Below are positions 6,930 through 20,607 of a stretch of 21,473 nt of DNA, one piece after another. Source of the stretch: a virus; the IMG/VR virus record IMGVR_UViG_3300009706_001346, positions 1-21,473 of that record. The stretch is one strand, 5' to 3'. Position numbers and translations under genes: made by a program. The notes beneath the pieces were generated by a model. It worked only from the letters and a program-made list of their open reading frames with translations. It had not been told where the DNA came from and did no database searches. The first letter of the stretch is position 1; every line of letters begins with the position of its first letter.

Positions 6930-8198
6930 TTAGGGAAGGTTGTTGTCGTTGAAGAACGCGACAAAGTCGGGGTCGTCAGCGAAGTCGCCATCCCACGGAA
7001 CATCTTCCCGAGCGGTCGTTGACTGCCCGGAACCCATGATTCGCTTGTTCTGCTTTTTCACGGACGCCGTAACGGCCGTTCGTTGCTGGTGCGCGATTTG
7101 ATTAGGAAATGCCAACTGGAGAGATCGTTGAACGAGTTCCGCGTTCATGTCCGATGGCCGGTTGGTCGAATAAAGACCAGCCTGCAATGACATTGCTTCG
7201 CGGTACAACAACTCAAAATTCGCGTTCTGTTCTTCGGTGGCGGTTTCGCCATCTCCAAACAGTTCGGTCTGATCGAGTTGATTTACTCCTTCAAAAAACT
7301 GATCCAATTCGGCATTGTTTTTAACTTGCTGATCTTGCTCCTCACGACCAATAACGTGATCGTAAACAGCCTTTAGGTCACCCTGTTGCTGATCGAACCT
7401 CGATTGCATCTCCCTCTGAGCGGCGTCTTGTGCCACTCGGTTGGAGTACATATCCGTCAGTTCAGCCAGGATGGATTCGTCATGGCCGTCTTCCCGAAGT
7501 GCCTGTATTCTCGCCGCGAACTCCGGCTTTGATTCCGGTTCAACGCCTTGAGGTGCAGGTTGGCCTGCGGGATTAGGCTGTTGTTGTTGTTGCTGCTGCT
7601 GCCACTGTTGTTGCTGCCACTGTTGTTGCTGCCACTGTTGTTGCTGCCACTGTTGTTGCTCTGGCGTTAGCTGCTGCTCTGGCGTTAGCTGCTCCTGCTG
7701 TTGCTGCTCCTGCTGTTGCTGCTCAGGATTAACATCGGGCGGTAATTGTTCTCGACCGACGTTCGCTAACGCCCGGTCTTGAAGTGCCAACGCCCGCTCA
7801 AACTCTTCAACGCTCTCGAATCCGGCCACCTCGTCGGCAGCCATTCCTCGATCTTGCGCCAAGGACAGAATCTTCTGCCCCTCTTCGCTGACTTCAGCGG
7901 CGGGAGTTGTGTCGGCGGAAGTTTCATCGCCAACAACAGGTTTGTTGCCCCCTACTTCGCCGGCCGGACTTTCATCGGCAGACTTAGGGGACGTTTCTTT
8001 TGGTTCTGGAGTCGAATCCGGTGTATTTTCTGAATCAGGACTGGTGCCCAGTTCCGCTTCAGGCTCGGGTTCACCGCCCGGCCCATCGCTGGAAAAGTAG
8101 TGGTCGACCGCGGACGCACTTGCATCGTGTTCGACGGCAGCCGAACCAACCTCGGCCTCGTTACCAGCTTCTTCTTGTTTGATCGGTTTCAAAAACAT
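6930..8198 (-). CDS. Scaffold-like protein with Gln-rich repeat tract
   Basis: ATG at 8198 follows the upstream TAG with no gap (TAGATG) and has a GGGGGG tract about nine bases upstream. The 422-residue protein is highly acidic and Pro/Ser/Thr-rich for the first 110 residues. A helical stretch follows (SLAQDRGMAADEVAGFESVEEFERAL, in two parts), then a Gln-rich tract (about 155-215) with four WQQQQ units. The C-terminal helical part (about 225-390) is charged. Composition, length and the place immediately before the major capsid gene are those of an internal scaffolding protein, though sequence similarity is not expected to be diagnostic. The last residues, DFADDPDFVAFFNDNN, form an acidic-aromatic tail that could contact the coat protein. 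Confidence 0.7.
   Translation of the reverse strand: MFLKPIKQEEAGNEAEVGSAAVEHDASASAVDHYFSSDGPGGEPEPEAELGTSPDSENTPDSTPEPKETSPKSADESPAGEVGGNKPVVGDETSADTTPAAEVSEEGQKILSLAQDRGMAADEVAGFESVEEFERALALQDRALANVGREQLPPDVNPEQQQQEQQQQEQLTPEQQLTPEQQQWQQQQWQQQQWQQQQWQQQQQQQQPNPAGQPAPQGVEPESKPEFAARIQALREDGHDESILAELTDMYSNRVAQDAAQREMQSRFDQQQGDLKAVYDHVIGREEQDQQVKNNAELDQFFEGVNQLDQTELFGDGETATEEQNANFELLYREAMSLQAGLYSTNRPSDMNAELVQRSLQLAFPNQIAHQQRTAVTASVKKQNKRIMGSGQSTTAREDVPWDGDFADDPDFVAFFNDNNLP
7577..7732 (-). repeat. In-frame short tandem repeats encoding Gln tract
   Basis: On the plus strand, the 15-mer GCCACTGTTGTTGCT is repeated exactly four times (7601-7660). It is flanked by TTG/CTG triplets and by a second repeat around CTCTGGCGTTAGCTG (two copies). 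On the coding strand this gives WQQQQ units and LTPEQQ units. All period lengths are multiples of three, so copy-number changes keep the frame. Confidence 0.9.
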
Positions 8199-13309: not shown

Positions 13310-13330
13310 ACCACACAGAGGGGAATGGGA

Positions 13331-14110
13331 ATGGAAGAAGCGATCATCTATGCTCGGGTTTCACCGAAACCGGAGCATAAGAAGGACAGGTGCGAGTCAA
13401 TCGACACTCAGATTGAGGGGTGCCAGGCTTACTGCCAGTCTTACCAAATGAACCCGTCAGTGATCCTGCGTGATCCTGGGGTTTCCGCCAGAAAGAATCA
13501 GCTTCTTGACCGCCCCGAAGGCAGGAAGATCATGACGCTCGGCTACAGGCACATCGTGGTCCTCAAGCTGGATCGCATGTTTCGCAGCACGGCTGACGGA
13601 CTCCTGACCATCAAGGAGTTTCACAGGAGGGGAATCACGCTGCATTTAGCCAACGAATCAGGAGTGTCCCTCACATCGAACACGGATGAGGGGTACTACG
13701 TTCTCACGATGCTTCTTGCCCGTGCAGAATACGAGGCCGCGAAAACTGGTTCCACCACCGCCCACGCACTGAATCGAATCCAAAAGCAGGGTCGGATTGT
13801 GAGCCGGTCGTGCCGGTACGGGTACAGGGAAATCGAAAGCAAAGGAGCCGACAATAGGAGGAGGTTCGAGCGGTGCGAAGAGGAGCAATTCTATGCCGAC
13901 TACATTGAGGAAATGAGAGGCGAAAAGATCGGCGCTACTTGGACTGAGGCTTCGGACAGAATGAACCGGGAAGGACTCCTCTTGCGAGGCGCGAGATGGA
14001 ATCGTCATAAGACGACGAGGTTTTACAAGTCCGTTCGCAGGTTCAAACTCGAAGGCGATGAACTTGTGGAGACGATCAAGCATGTAAACGAAACGGAGCC
14101 GATCGCATGA
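13331..14110 (+). CDS. Short serine recombinase
   Basis: GAGGGG at 13318-13323 is one base from the first ATG (13325) but seven from the second (13331), so I use 13331 (259 aa). The resolvase catalytic domain begins IIYARVS (nucleophile Ser11, Arg9), then DTQIEGCQAYC, a KLDRMFRSTADG motif with the active-site arginines, and LARAEYEAAKTG leading to the long helix. The recombinase domain follows (RYGYREIE, then ATWTEASDRMNREGLLLRG and W.RHKTTRFYKSVRR). The usual zinc-ribbon and coiled-coil tail of large serine integrases is absent, making it short for that class. It could integrate or excise a phage or invert DNA. It is the first gene of a rightward cassette and overlaps the next start by ATGA. 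Confidence 0.88.
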   Translation: MEEAIIYARVSPKPEHKKDRCESIDTQIEGCQAYCQSYQMNPSVILRDPGVSARKNQLLDRPEGRKIMTLGYRHIVVLKLDRMFRSTADGLLTIKEFHRRGITLHLANESGVSLTSNTDEGYYVLTMLLARAEYEAAKTGSTTAHALNRIQKQGRIVSRSCRYGYREIESKGADNRRRFERCEEEQFYADYIEEMRGEKIGATWTEASDRMNREGLLLRGARWNRHKTTRFYKSVRRFKLEGDELVETIKHVNETEPIA

Positions 14111-14618: not shown

Positions 14619-14734
14619 AAACAGATGAGAGGTTTCCGTGGTGGATGTTCGTCGCACTCGCGGTGTGGCTTGCAGCGCCTACAATTTTCCGCCAGTACCA
14701 CCACGAGAAAAAGGATACGACCGATGGCGAGTGA
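14615..14734 (+). CDS. 39-residue single-pass membrane protein
   Basis: ATG overlaps the previous stop (ATGA), with GGGAGG about ten bases upstream inside the previous gene. The product starts MKTDERFPWW, then has a hydrophobic helix (MFVALAVWLAAPTIF, about residues 11-25) and a charged, His-containing tail (RQYHHEKKDTTDGE). A positively charged flank after the helix is consistent with one membrane span. Small membrane proteins in phage cassettes can be holins, superinfection-exclusion factors or regulators; nothing here distinguishes these. It overlaps the next gene by 11 bases. Confidence 0.6.
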   Translation: MKTDERFPWWMFVALAVWLAAPTIFRQYHHEKKDTTDGE

Positions 14735-14909
14735 AAAGAAGCACTACGAAATACCCAAATGTGACCTGCTAACCTGCCCTAAGTGCAATTACACCGGCTC
14801 CGTCTTTGACGACTTCGACAACCTTGGAGCGTCAGGCGAGACCAACGTATTCTGCAATCGGTGCAACTCTGAGTTTAACCCAGATACTGGTGATGTGGGA
14901 GCAGATTGA
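14724..14909 (+). CDS. Small zinc-ribbon protein, 61 aa
   Basis: I start at ATG 14724 (MASEKKHYEIPK), inside the end of the preceding gene; the frame is open further upstream but that part is the shadow of the membrane-protein gene. Two knuckles, CPKC (about residues 18-21) and CNRC (about 45-48), frame a classic zinc ribbon, with CNYTGSVFDDFD and ETNVFCNRCNSEF as strands. A third Cys precedes. Such ribbons bind nucleic acid or proteins. It is one of at least four small Cys-pair proteins in this window. Function unknown. Confidence 0.7.
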   Translation: MASEKKHYEIPKCDLLTCPKCNYTGSVFDDFDNLGASGETNVFCNRCNSEFNPDTGDVGAD

Positions 14910-14912
14910 ATC

Positions 14913-15116
14913 ATGAACCCAGGCGACCGAGTCCAACTACGCAATGCCCTCGTAACAGTCACAGGTGGCTCACACGGCGCTGGGACCGAATACACAGTCT
15001 GGCGGCGGTTCGAGACAAGTCGGGGCGACAGGCTGGCTCTGATGGACGGTGACCGGATTGTGCTGCCTTGTGTTCCGGTGGAGCAGGTTGAGTCGGTGTT
15101 GGGAGTGGGTTCATAG
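14913..15116 (+). CDS. Small SH3-like protein, 67 aa
   Basis: ATG three bases after the previous stop. The sequence MNPGDRVQLRNALVTVTGG, then TEYTVWRRFETSRGDRLALMDGDRIVLPCVP (in parts), has the Gly-Asp-x-Val turn and alternating strands of a small SH3 or KOW-like barrel, as in proteins with a GDRV start. There is no membrane or catalytic motif. It is the last gene of the rightward cassette and its final codons overlap the end of the HNH gene on the other strand by six bases. Fold is an inference from pattern only. Confidence 0.65.
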   Translation: MNPGDRVQLRNALVTVTGGSHGAGTEYTVWRRFETSRGDRLALMDGDRIVLPCVPVEQVESVLGVGS

Positions 15117-15446
15117 CTTATCTTTCAGCAAGGCGTTCCAGTACAAAACCGTCGCCCGAACGTGTGGATTGAATCGACGCCAATTCCCAAGATGCCCGAA
15201 CAACTGGTGACAACTCTTGATGCCGTACTTCCCGCCCTCGCACAGTGCCATCAGATTATCCGGCTCCAACTCAAACTCCGGTGCGATCGAAAACGGGACG
15301 ATGTGGTGGGCTACGAGGTAGTTCCTTCGCTCACAGATCGCACACACCCGCCCCTGTAGGAAATTGTCGCGAACGCCCCGCCATTTGGAACTGCGGGCGT
15401 GGTGGCCGTCCTTGAGCCTGTCAGTGACATCACGCCAGCGGCTCAT
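15111..15446 (-). CDS. HNH endonuclease
   Basis: ATG at 15446 with GAGGG about eight bases upstream gives a 111-residue protein. It has the zinc pair CAIC (about residues 36-39), LVAHHIVPF with the catalytic His pair (about 46-47), EPDNLMALCEGG with the central Asn, and KSCHQLFGH completing the second metal pair and HNH signature. Basic N-terminal sequence (DGHHARSSKWRGVR) probably contacts DNA. Free-standing HNH proteins act as homing endonucleases or, next to terminase, assist packaging. This one is distant from the terminase gene and converges on the recombinase cassette, so a selfish or homing role is at least as likely. Confidence 0.85.
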   Translation of the reverse strand: MSRWRDVTDRLKDGHHARSSKWRGVRDNFLQGRVCAICERRNYLVAHHIVPFSIAPEFELEPDNLMALCEGGKYGIKSCHQLFGHLGNWRRFNPHVRATVLYWNALLKDKL

Positions 15447-18400: not shown

Positions 18401-18439
18401 CCAACGGCCACAATCCGTGGCCGTTGGTTTGTTTGTTTT
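18401..18439 (+). terminator. Intrinsic terminator
   Basis: CCAACGGCCAC (18401-18411), a five-base loop AATCC, then GTGGCCGTTGG (18417-18427), all 11 pairs perfect, followed by TTTGTTTGTTTT. It ends the transcript of the two genes at 17467 and 17809 and implies a new promoter or readthrough for the gene at 18470. Confidence 0.93.
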
Positions 18440-18469: not shown

Positions 18470-19771
18470 ATGACCAAGCCGTGTAAGGCCGCGCGCAAGC
18501 GCGTCGTAATGTCAAGGATTAAATTGCTACACGCGATGCGACGAGTCGCAGCTGCAGAACCAAGGGAGTGTCGACGGGCCGGGTATGAGGCAATTGAACG
18601 GGCCGTGAGAAACAATGTTAAACGTCATTACCTTGCCGACTCTGAGGATTCGCCGGGACGCAAGGTATCGTATACGCGAAGCGATGCGGGGACGTATGAC
18701 ATAGACAAGCGAATGCGGACGACGTTGGGTCGCTACATCGGGCGACAACTGGATGTGCGGATCTGTTTGGGTGATGCTGAGATTGCGCGGTACTGCCAAG
18801 CGGTTGGCGCGTTGTTGTGCGATGTGGTTGAGGGATTCGCGGTCGTGAGTGGCGCGGCAATCCGAAATTTCTACCGGGACATTCCAATCCCCGGTAGTTG
18901 CATGTGCGGCGGTGCATCTCGCTACACGCAAGTCTATGCCGACAATCCGTCTGTTGTCGAGATGTTGACGTATGACGACGGCAAAGATCTCAAGGCGCGA
19001 GCGTTGCTGTGGACGGCGCGGTGTGGAACCAAGCTAATGGATAGGATCTACCCCAACAGCGGTTACCATGTCGACCTGATGCATCGTTGGGCGAGCGCGA
19101 ACGGGTATCTGATCCGCGAGCACAACAGCCTACCAAGCGGGCCTGTCAATTTCGGCGGGACCAGCACGGAGTTCAACGTTGAACTCCGACACAATGGCGA
19201 AGTGCCTTATTTTGACTCATTTCACCGAGGCGATCATGACGCGAGATGCCTGTGGTTGTCGACACGGACGGGGGAGTACGAATTTGAATCGACGAGTGGC
19301 AGATTGCCTAACGGGGGTGAACCCTGCGGCGATTGTGGCGACGTTCGGGACGAAGACGATTTGTACGCGATCAACGACGACGGGCATCGCGTTTGTCATG
19401 CGTGCTGGACCGATTACAGGTCGTGCGCAAGGTGCGAATCGATGCATTTTTGCGATGATATGGTCGCGGTGGATGGATGCGACAATGACTGGTGCGAATG
19501 GTGTGCAGAAAACTACGCTGATCGTTGCCATGTGTGCGCGGATCACGTCACAGAGACTGTAACGCCAGCCGACTCGTGTGACGAATACTGCGAGCATTGC
19601 GCGGACCGGCATCTGACCGATTGCGATCAATGCGGTGAACGTCTTGCGGACGACGATAGCATCGCCACGACGGATGGCGACGGGACGATTTGCGTTGATT
19701 GCAATCGCGAGAATTTGATTGAAGCCGACAACGAAACCGAAACCGAAAACGAAAGCGAAGTGACATTATGA
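18470..19771 (+). CDS. Multi-zinc-finger phage protein, 433 aa
   Basis: ATG at 18470 is a few bases after GGAGAG; an upstream GTG at 18458 overlaps that ribosome site and is less likely. The first 270 residues contain GSCMCGG (142-148), VYADNPSVVEMLTY, then ARALLWTARCGTKLMDRIYPNSG (176-198, in parts). This SCM, YxxNP, RALLW and DRIY series occurs, from memory, in an uncharacterised family in other phages. Residues 286-411 hold eight CxxC pairs: 286/289, 309/312, 319/322, 342/345, 353/356, 374/377, 385/388 and 408/411. Their regular spacing fits four two-pair zinc fingers. The tail is strongly acidic (ADNETETENESE). It overlaps the peptidase-like gene by ATGA. Role unknown; RNA, DNA or protein binding is possible. 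Confidence 0.8.
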   Translation: MTKPCKAARKRVVMSRIKLLHAMRRVAAAEPRECRRAGYEAIERAVRNNVKRHYLADSEDSPGRKVSYTRSDAGTYDIDKRMRTTLGRYIGRQLDVRICLGDAEIARYCQAVGALLCDVVEGFAVVSGAAIRNFYRDIPIPGSCMCGGASRYTQVYADNPSVVEMLTYDDGKDLKARALLWTARCGTKLMDRIYPNSGYHVDLMHRWASANGYLIREHNSLPSGPVNFGGTSTEFNVELRHNGEVPYFDSFHRGDHDARCLWLSTRTGEYEFESTSGRLPNGGEPCGDCGDVRDEDDLYAINDDGHRVCHACWTDYRSCARCESMHFCDDMVAVDGCDNDWCEWCAENYADRCHVCADHVTETVTPADSCDEYCEHCADRHLTDCDQCGERLADDDSIATTDGDGTICVDCNRENLIEADNETETENESEVTL

Positions 19772-20607
19772 ATCTCAAAAAATGCTTGTTGGCGGATAGC
19801 GATACGTTGTCCGCGATGGGAACAACCATCGAGACAGAGCACGGCCCATTGACGCACATCGACAACGATGGGAGCGTGCTGGCGGTTTGCCATCGTGACT
19901 GGGTCTACTGGGAGCGCAAGCCTAAGATCAGTTCCGGCGCGGTTGCCAAGTGTCCGCAACTGGATGATCGCTTAGGATTACATGCGGTGTTGAATGTGTT
20001 GCCCAAGCGATTGCGAAAGATGGGGTCTAAGGTGCGGTTTGATATCCTCATTACCGACTCTGAAGAGATTGGCCAATCGACTGCGCAGTATTTCCAGCCG
20101 GAAGATTTTGGCGTCGAGTCGGACCGGTACAATTGGCTGTTTCAATTTGATCGGGCTGGTAGCGATGCGGTGATGTACGACTACCACACCAAGGCTAATG
20201 TCAACCGCCTTGAGGACGTTGGCTACAAGGTCGGCCACGGTAGCTTCACTGACATTTGTTACTTGGAGCAATTGGGTGTTGCGGGCTGGAATCTGGGGAC
20301 GGGATACCATCGGCAACATACCAAAGACTGCTATGCCGACTTGGGGGAGTTGTCGAATTCGGTGGGCAAGTTCGCGAAGTTCATTGACCGGCATGCAGGC
20401 GAAAGAATCGAGCACGTTGAGACCGCGAAAGGGCAGGCCGGATCGACCGATCCTTGGGGTTACAATTATTGCGAGAACGAAGCAATCAGTACGATCTACT
20501 GTGACGTTCGTGAGATATCGTTCCCGATCTGCGCGGCGTGTAATCATGAGGTAGTTTATTCAGACTACCAATGCCCCAACTGTGGCTCTGACTTGTGCTA
20601 CGGGTAA
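19768..20607 (+). CDS. Probable zinc exopeptidase with C-terminal zinc ribbon
   Basis: ATG overlaps the previous stop (ATGA). The 279 residues show, in order, the hallmarks of M20/M28/M42-type metallopeptidases: a His-x-Asp (H30, D32), LDDRLG (D66, D67), LITDSEEIG (E99, E100), FQFDRAGSD (D128), GSFTDICYLEQLGVAGWNLGTGY and then HRQHT (H181/H184). These are the expected metal ligands and general base, in the expected order, in a compact version lacking a lid domain. A C-terminal zinc ribbon adds CAAC and CPNC. It would act in the cytoplasm, trimming peptides or a specific protein. The substrate is unknown; coupling to the multi-zinc-finger gene suggests they work together. Activity should be tested before it is assumed. 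Confidence 0.65.
   Translation: MNLKKCLLADSDTLSAMGTTIETEHGPLTHIDNDGSVLAVCHRDWVYWERKPKISSGAVAKCPQLDDRLGLHAVLNVLPKRLRKMGSKVRFDILITDSEEIGQSTAQYFQPEDFGVESDRYNWLFQFDRAGSDAVMYDYHTKANVNRLEDVGYKVGHGSFTDICYLEQLGVAGWNLGTGYHRQHTKDCYADLGELSNSVGKFAKFIDRHAGERIEHVETAKGQAGSTDPWGYNYCENEAISTIYCDVREISFPICAACNHEVVYSDYQCPNCGSDLCYG

Follow-up and report, generated by a model that had tools for sequence, protein, structure and literature searches.

The question raised by this locus is whether a zinc-rich protein and a small metallopeptidase encoded by overlapping viral genes form one functional unit and, if so, what such a unit would act on. The window analysed is the whole of a 21.5-kb contig (21,473 nucleotides) from an uncultured virus, and the two genes, here termed P1 and P2, are listed with their features in Table 1. 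The original prediction placed proteins of 433 and 279 residues here, joined by an ATGA overlap, and the open reading frames agree with it. The TGA stop of P1 is at 19769–19771 and the ATG of P2 begins at 19768, so the ATGA (sequence ATTATGAATC) is common to both genes. A GGAG is located 6 nt 5′ of the P1 ATG; a GTG four codons upstream is a possible alternative start, less likely than the ATG. No sigma-70-like promoter was found on the + strand after the hairpin that precedes P1.

Table 1. Features of the P1/P2 locus, with positions in the window
Feature	Position	Strand	Remarks
Terminator-like hairpin, 11-bp stem and T-rich tail	18401..18437	+	Consensus match only; strong, ~33 bases upstream of P1
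P1	18470..19771	+	433 aa; probable GNAT-like 'SCM' domain, then four double-CxxC zinc repeats
SCM domain of P1, residues ~118–282, likely GNAT-like fold	18821..19315	+	AlphaFold model, fold matches, conservation in 41 homologs
Eight CxxC in four ~33-residue repeats of P1, residues 286–411	19325..19702	+	Model confidence low in this region
ATGA stop/start overlap, P1/P2	19768..19771	+	
P2	19768..20607	+	279 aa; predicted compact co-catalytic zinc exopeptidase with C-terminal zinc ribbon
P2 catalytic core, residues 1–212	19768..20403	+	Predicted ligands H42, D67, E100, D128, H184; general base E99
P2 zinc ribbon, CAAC...CPNC, residues 255–272	20530..20583	+	CxxC-x10-CxxC at 255/269; model poor here

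The ordered motifs of M20/M28/M42 peptidases attributed to P2 at the outset are real, and consist of HxD (42/44), DD (66/67), EE (99/100), D (128) and H (184). Across 16 aligned sequences of the P2 family, H42, D44, D66, D67, E99, E100, D128, R129 and H184 are invariant, which includes all five predicted metal ligands and the catalytic Glu. The family profile matches Peptidase T (E 4e-23) with the same residues aligned. The AlphaFold model of P2 has a mean pLDDT of 80, with the core mostly above 90. Foldseek matches it to tripeptidase/PepT, M42 and DapE folds (E 1e-7 to 3gb0), and the best VIA structure comparison is with 3rza (Z 19.9, rmsd 2.9, 206 residues); among the 50 VIA matches listed, Z is 16.6–19.9 over ~190–212 residues of the core alpha/beta fold. 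A predicted fold that lacked the metallopeptidase core or its ligands would have spoken against the assignment; both are present. Motifs and model together identify P2 as a putative clan-MH (M20/M28/M42) co-catalytic metallopeptidase core.

The core appears to be a reduced one. The spacing is 25 residues from H42 to D67 and 56 from D128 to H184, and the core has no insertion. Most matched chains are 330–470 residues long and align to P2 residues 1–217; P2 therefore corresponds to their catalytic core alone, lacking both the M20 lid and the PDZ-like insertion of M42. Compared with PepT/tripeptidase (M20B) and the M42 tetrahedral aminopeptidases (3rza, 3gb0, 1y0r), P2 has the same fold, the same HxD...DD...EE...D...H order and a predicted two-metal site, but its core is about 212 residues, it adds a zinc ribbon and identity is only 12–19%. 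Pfam scores for P2 fall below gathering thresholds (M42, 22.4 vs 23.2 bits; M20, 12 vs 24.6). The M28 family gives no match to P2 and weak matches to its relatives, and the single-domain core of P2 fits M28. P2 is classed as a clan-MH core, is assigned to neither M20 nor M42, and represents a known kind of peptidase in a new, reduced form.

The zinc ribbon ascribed to P2 is also found, and several P2 relatives likewise terminate in zinc ribbons. In one relative (L088:106-1611), the peptidase chain itself bears a C-terminal extension with a DnaJ-like CxxCxGxG zinc finger. Relatives occur in Enterococcus, Lactococcus, Bacillus, Brevibacillus and Vibrio phages, several of them annotated 'peptidase', and P2 matches the phage peptidase families phrog_34186 (1e-8), phrog_4191 (2e-8) and phrog_21791 (3e-5). 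It shares its ligands with members of these families such as Drulisvirus KpV74 gp10, Vibrio VP93 gp7, Enterococcus H1_6 and Lactococcus P087 gp23, but is shorter, with about 20–26% identity. It should be pointed out that a peptidase in a phage had initially been considered unexpected. That view does not hold, because such phage peptidases are already annotated in many genomes, and the gene is conserved in KP34-like and PhiM1-like phages.

The closest relatives of P2 are encoded by two contigs, L076 (50% identity) and L088 (39%). Both contigs are truncated upstream of the peptidase, and strict orthologs of the P1/P2 pair were therefore not recovered. Short tandem-like repeats are present at the L076 contig end (L076:1-150), where the P1 gene would be expected. 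IMG/VR scans with P1 or P2 as single-protein queries gave no matches, and searches for degenerate patterns of either protein in 84,980 prokaryote genomes gave no relative, a result that weakly suggests that the P1/P2 forms are phage-borne.

The pairing of the two genes is a stronger part of the observation than the peptidase itself. A zinc-finger gene with an SC(M/H) motif (SC partner) abuts or lies near the peptidase gene in Klebsiella/Escherichia Drulisvirus-like phages, Vibrio VP93-like phages, one Enterococcus phage and a number of large phages known from uncultured sequence. Coupling of the peptidase to a zinc-rich partner is thus seen in relatives, whereas adjacency in no relative would have counted against it. 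When the Drulisvirus/Vibrio partner family is the query, the peptidase is directly downstream in all 18 of 18 loci, overlapping or at most 20 bases off; a tblastn search with VP93 gp6 reaches 291 phage records. With the peptidase as query, a 'W.SC(M/H)' zinc-finger gene abuts it in five loci (L078, L080, L081, L083, L084) and is at most 1.6 kb away in L079 and L082. A search of the whole records of L078–L084 (30–182 kb) located all detected SC genes inside the 10-kb neighbourhood of the peptidase. The L077 peptidase, with 34% identity to P2, is overlapped by an upstream 333-aa gene having 'GSCLR...ARAFLL' and five CxxC, and in Enterococcus H1 the peptidase is flanked on both sides by SC proteins.

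The P1 family itself is less strictly tied to the peptidase. With this family as query, a same-strand peptidase abuts or nearly abuts in five distinct contigs (six loci: L018, L024, L026, L035/L036, L056), where about 1.2 contigs would be expected by chance on either strand at one gene per kb. About 30 of 36 distinct P1-type contigs have no adjacent peptidase, and the link is therefore frequent, not obligatory. No SC partner was detected beside the peptidase in Lactococcus P087-like phages, Bacillus BcoS-136 or Brevibacillus Jenst. These solitary peptidases raise the question of whether P2 is a general aminopeptidase that recovers amino acids from the peptides left when host proteins are degraded, with P1 a zinc protein that is unrelated to it or only loosely linked. 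Clearing of peptides is the known task of PepT and M42 enzymes, and this too favours such a salvage role. The ATGA-type coupling and the repeated finding, in unrelated phages, of SC zinc proteins right beside the peptidase argue the other way, and peptide salvage seems an unlikely explanation. No description of a pair made up of such a peptidase and a GNAT-like zinc protein was found in the part of the literature covered by the search.

P1 has no Pfam match. Its SCM/RALLW/DRIY domain, noted at the outset as unassigned, can now be modelled. A four-sequence alignment with huge-phage proteins led to 44 IMG/VR loci, and the domain was then delimited in 55 open reading frames. In 41 proteins the invariant positions are Y135, S143-C144-M145, Y156, R177, W181, D191-R192-Y194, P246 and D249. 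Conservation this strict would fit a binding or active site better than a scaffold. The AlphaFold model of P1 is confident across most of residues 80–240; over residues ~118–282 the mean pLDDT is about 65–95 per 10-residue block and is mostly above 80 for 121–240. Among the 50 PDB matches listed by Foldseek, all are to the GNAT superfamily or to FemX, with a best E of 0.028 and a probability of 0.96. FemX is a GNAT-fold aminoacyl transferase. In the Foldseek viral list, the close matches are to unnamed or uncharacterised phage proteins only. The VIA comparison again matches GNATs (highest Z 8.9, 109 residues), close to a level common among unrelated folds. Because these scores are modest, the fold is graded only as likely GNAT-like.

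The predicted topology resembles that of GNAT acetyltransferases such as 1bo4 and RimI, but the cofactor site differs. The Q/RxxGxG/A acetyl-CoA pyrophosphate loop after strand 4 is found in none of 41 SCM-domain members, and a GNAT Pfam match is likewise absent from the family; the invariant SCM, R and DRY are present instead. Use of acetyl-CoA by P1 is doubtful because of the missing loop, and a role as an acetyltransferase was not adopted on this ground.

All eight of the regularly spaced CxxC pairs noted earlier in P1 are found, at residues 286, 309, 319, 342, 353, 374, 385 and 408, with step lengths that alternate (23/10/23/11/21/11/23). When the 150-residue C-terminal part with its 19 Cys was shuffled 20,000 times, at least eight CxxC arose in 0.02% of cases, regular spacing not counted. 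Since each repeat carries two CxxC pairs, the eight knuckles most likely represent four 4-Cys zinc sites, and eight separate zinc fingers were dropped in favour of four two-knuckle repeats. The C-terminal fingers of some P1 homologs give Pfam matches of the DnaJ-central, BSD2 and LIM types.

Are P1 and the other SC partners one family? The KP34/KpV74 gp09-gp10-type pair and VP93 gp6-gp7 resemble P1/P2 in that an SCM-motif CxxC-finger protein is directly 5′ of the peptidase. Compared by eye, the P1, Drulisvirus and Enterococcus/large-phage types have their features in the same order. SC(M/H) comes first and is followed by three strands, of which the second contains R and the third ends with an aromatic motif (DRIY, RAYG or GYPY); a helix and the CxxC fingers come last. 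An hhalign comparison of the P1 family with the Drulisvirus SC protein gives P 0.0038 with SCM in register; with the full-length protein it ranks first of 33 control families, at only P 0.028. Plain HMMER searches found no link between the P1 domain and the SC proteins of Drulisvirus or Enterococcus, and no significant domain match came from hhalign when the alignments were thin. KpV74 gp09 and VP93 gp6 differ from P1 in being ~650–720 aa, of which a large N-terminal part is unrelated. The case for homology of the P1 domain with the Drulisvirus SC protein is built on these profile values, the in-register SCM and synteny; homology between the P1 family and these partners is only suggestive, with common descent regarded as probable.

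The reading preferred here, to which we would give about an even chance, is that P1 and P2 are one translationally coupled functional unit that trims a chosen polypeptide. P2 would be an active two-metal aminopeptidase-type enzyme cut back to the PepT/M42/M28 superfamily core, its active site left open by the absence of a lid or oligomerisation insertion. P1, presumably in physical contact with P2, would provide the choice of substrate. Its zinc repeats, being LIM/DnaJ-finger-like, may bind the polypeptide, and the GNAT-like SCM domain may hold or chemically modify the N-terminus without acetyl-CoA. In the course of infection P2 would then trim one particular protein of phage or host, or be prevented from doing so.

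When this would take place is indicated by annotated relatives. KP34-like phages conserve the peptidase gene ahead of the primase (PMC4411677), and in PhiM1-like phages it belongs to the conserved core genes before the primase, called the early gene region, where it (IPR007484) is the only assigned function (PMC6115819). This placement suggests that the relatives act early during infection, and by analogy P1 and P2 may share that timing. In KpV74 and VP93 the pair is located among early/replication genes. Perhaps the pair serves counter-defence or host shut-off, removing N-terminal residues from a single host protein early in infection and so inactivating it. The position of the peptidase gene in KP34-like and PhiM1-like phages fits this, as does the resemblance of the zinc repeats to protein-binding fingers; no defence-related neighbour was identified, however, and the proposal, a special case of the coupled unit, is rather improbable in this specific form. 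The same early neighbours in KpV74 and VP93 weigh against a part in the virion or its assembly, in which P1 and P2 would process one of the structural proteins of the phage or P1 would be such a protein itself. One Vibrio phage record (H77) does label a gp6 homolog 'putative structural protein', but in the window a long distance separates P1 and P2 from the head-gene cluster, which is on the opposite strand, and a virion or assembly role is very unlikely.

A variant of the coupled unit is an N-terminal editing system. P1 would be a GNAT-fold transferase that tags N-termini from a donor other than acetyl-CoA, e.g. aminoacyl-tRNA, the donor used by Aat, ATE1 and FemX, and P2 would remove residues or the tag. 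This is a long shot. If true, an N-terminal editing pair would decide what becomes of selected proteins in the infected cell. Hundreds of sequenced phages carry such peptidases under the bare annotation 'peptidase', and the zinc-rich partner that recurs beside them, its GNAT-like core strictly conserved, hints at a two-protein machine that is common. The pair is open to direct testing in Klebsiella, Vibrio or Enterococcus phages, and its substrate would tell its function.

Several other genes in the window are of interest. The gene 3′ of P2 (20690–20959, + strand) encodes an 89-aa Cys-rich zinc-ribbon-like protein (CSAC...CPSC), and zinc proteins therefore cluster at this locus. A 68-aa product with two CxxC pairs (14703–14909, + strand) shows a weak likeness to small phage zinc-ribbon families. 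A serine-recombinase-like integrase/invertase (13325–14110, + strand; phrog_95, 7e-27) adjoins the terminase, which suggests a temperate virus, and an HNH endonuclease (phrog_589) is encoded at 15111–15446 on the − strand. Between the capsid-like and portal-like genes is a 422-aa protein (6930–8198, − strand) with long glutamine-rich repeats of WQQQQ units, perhaps a scaffold.
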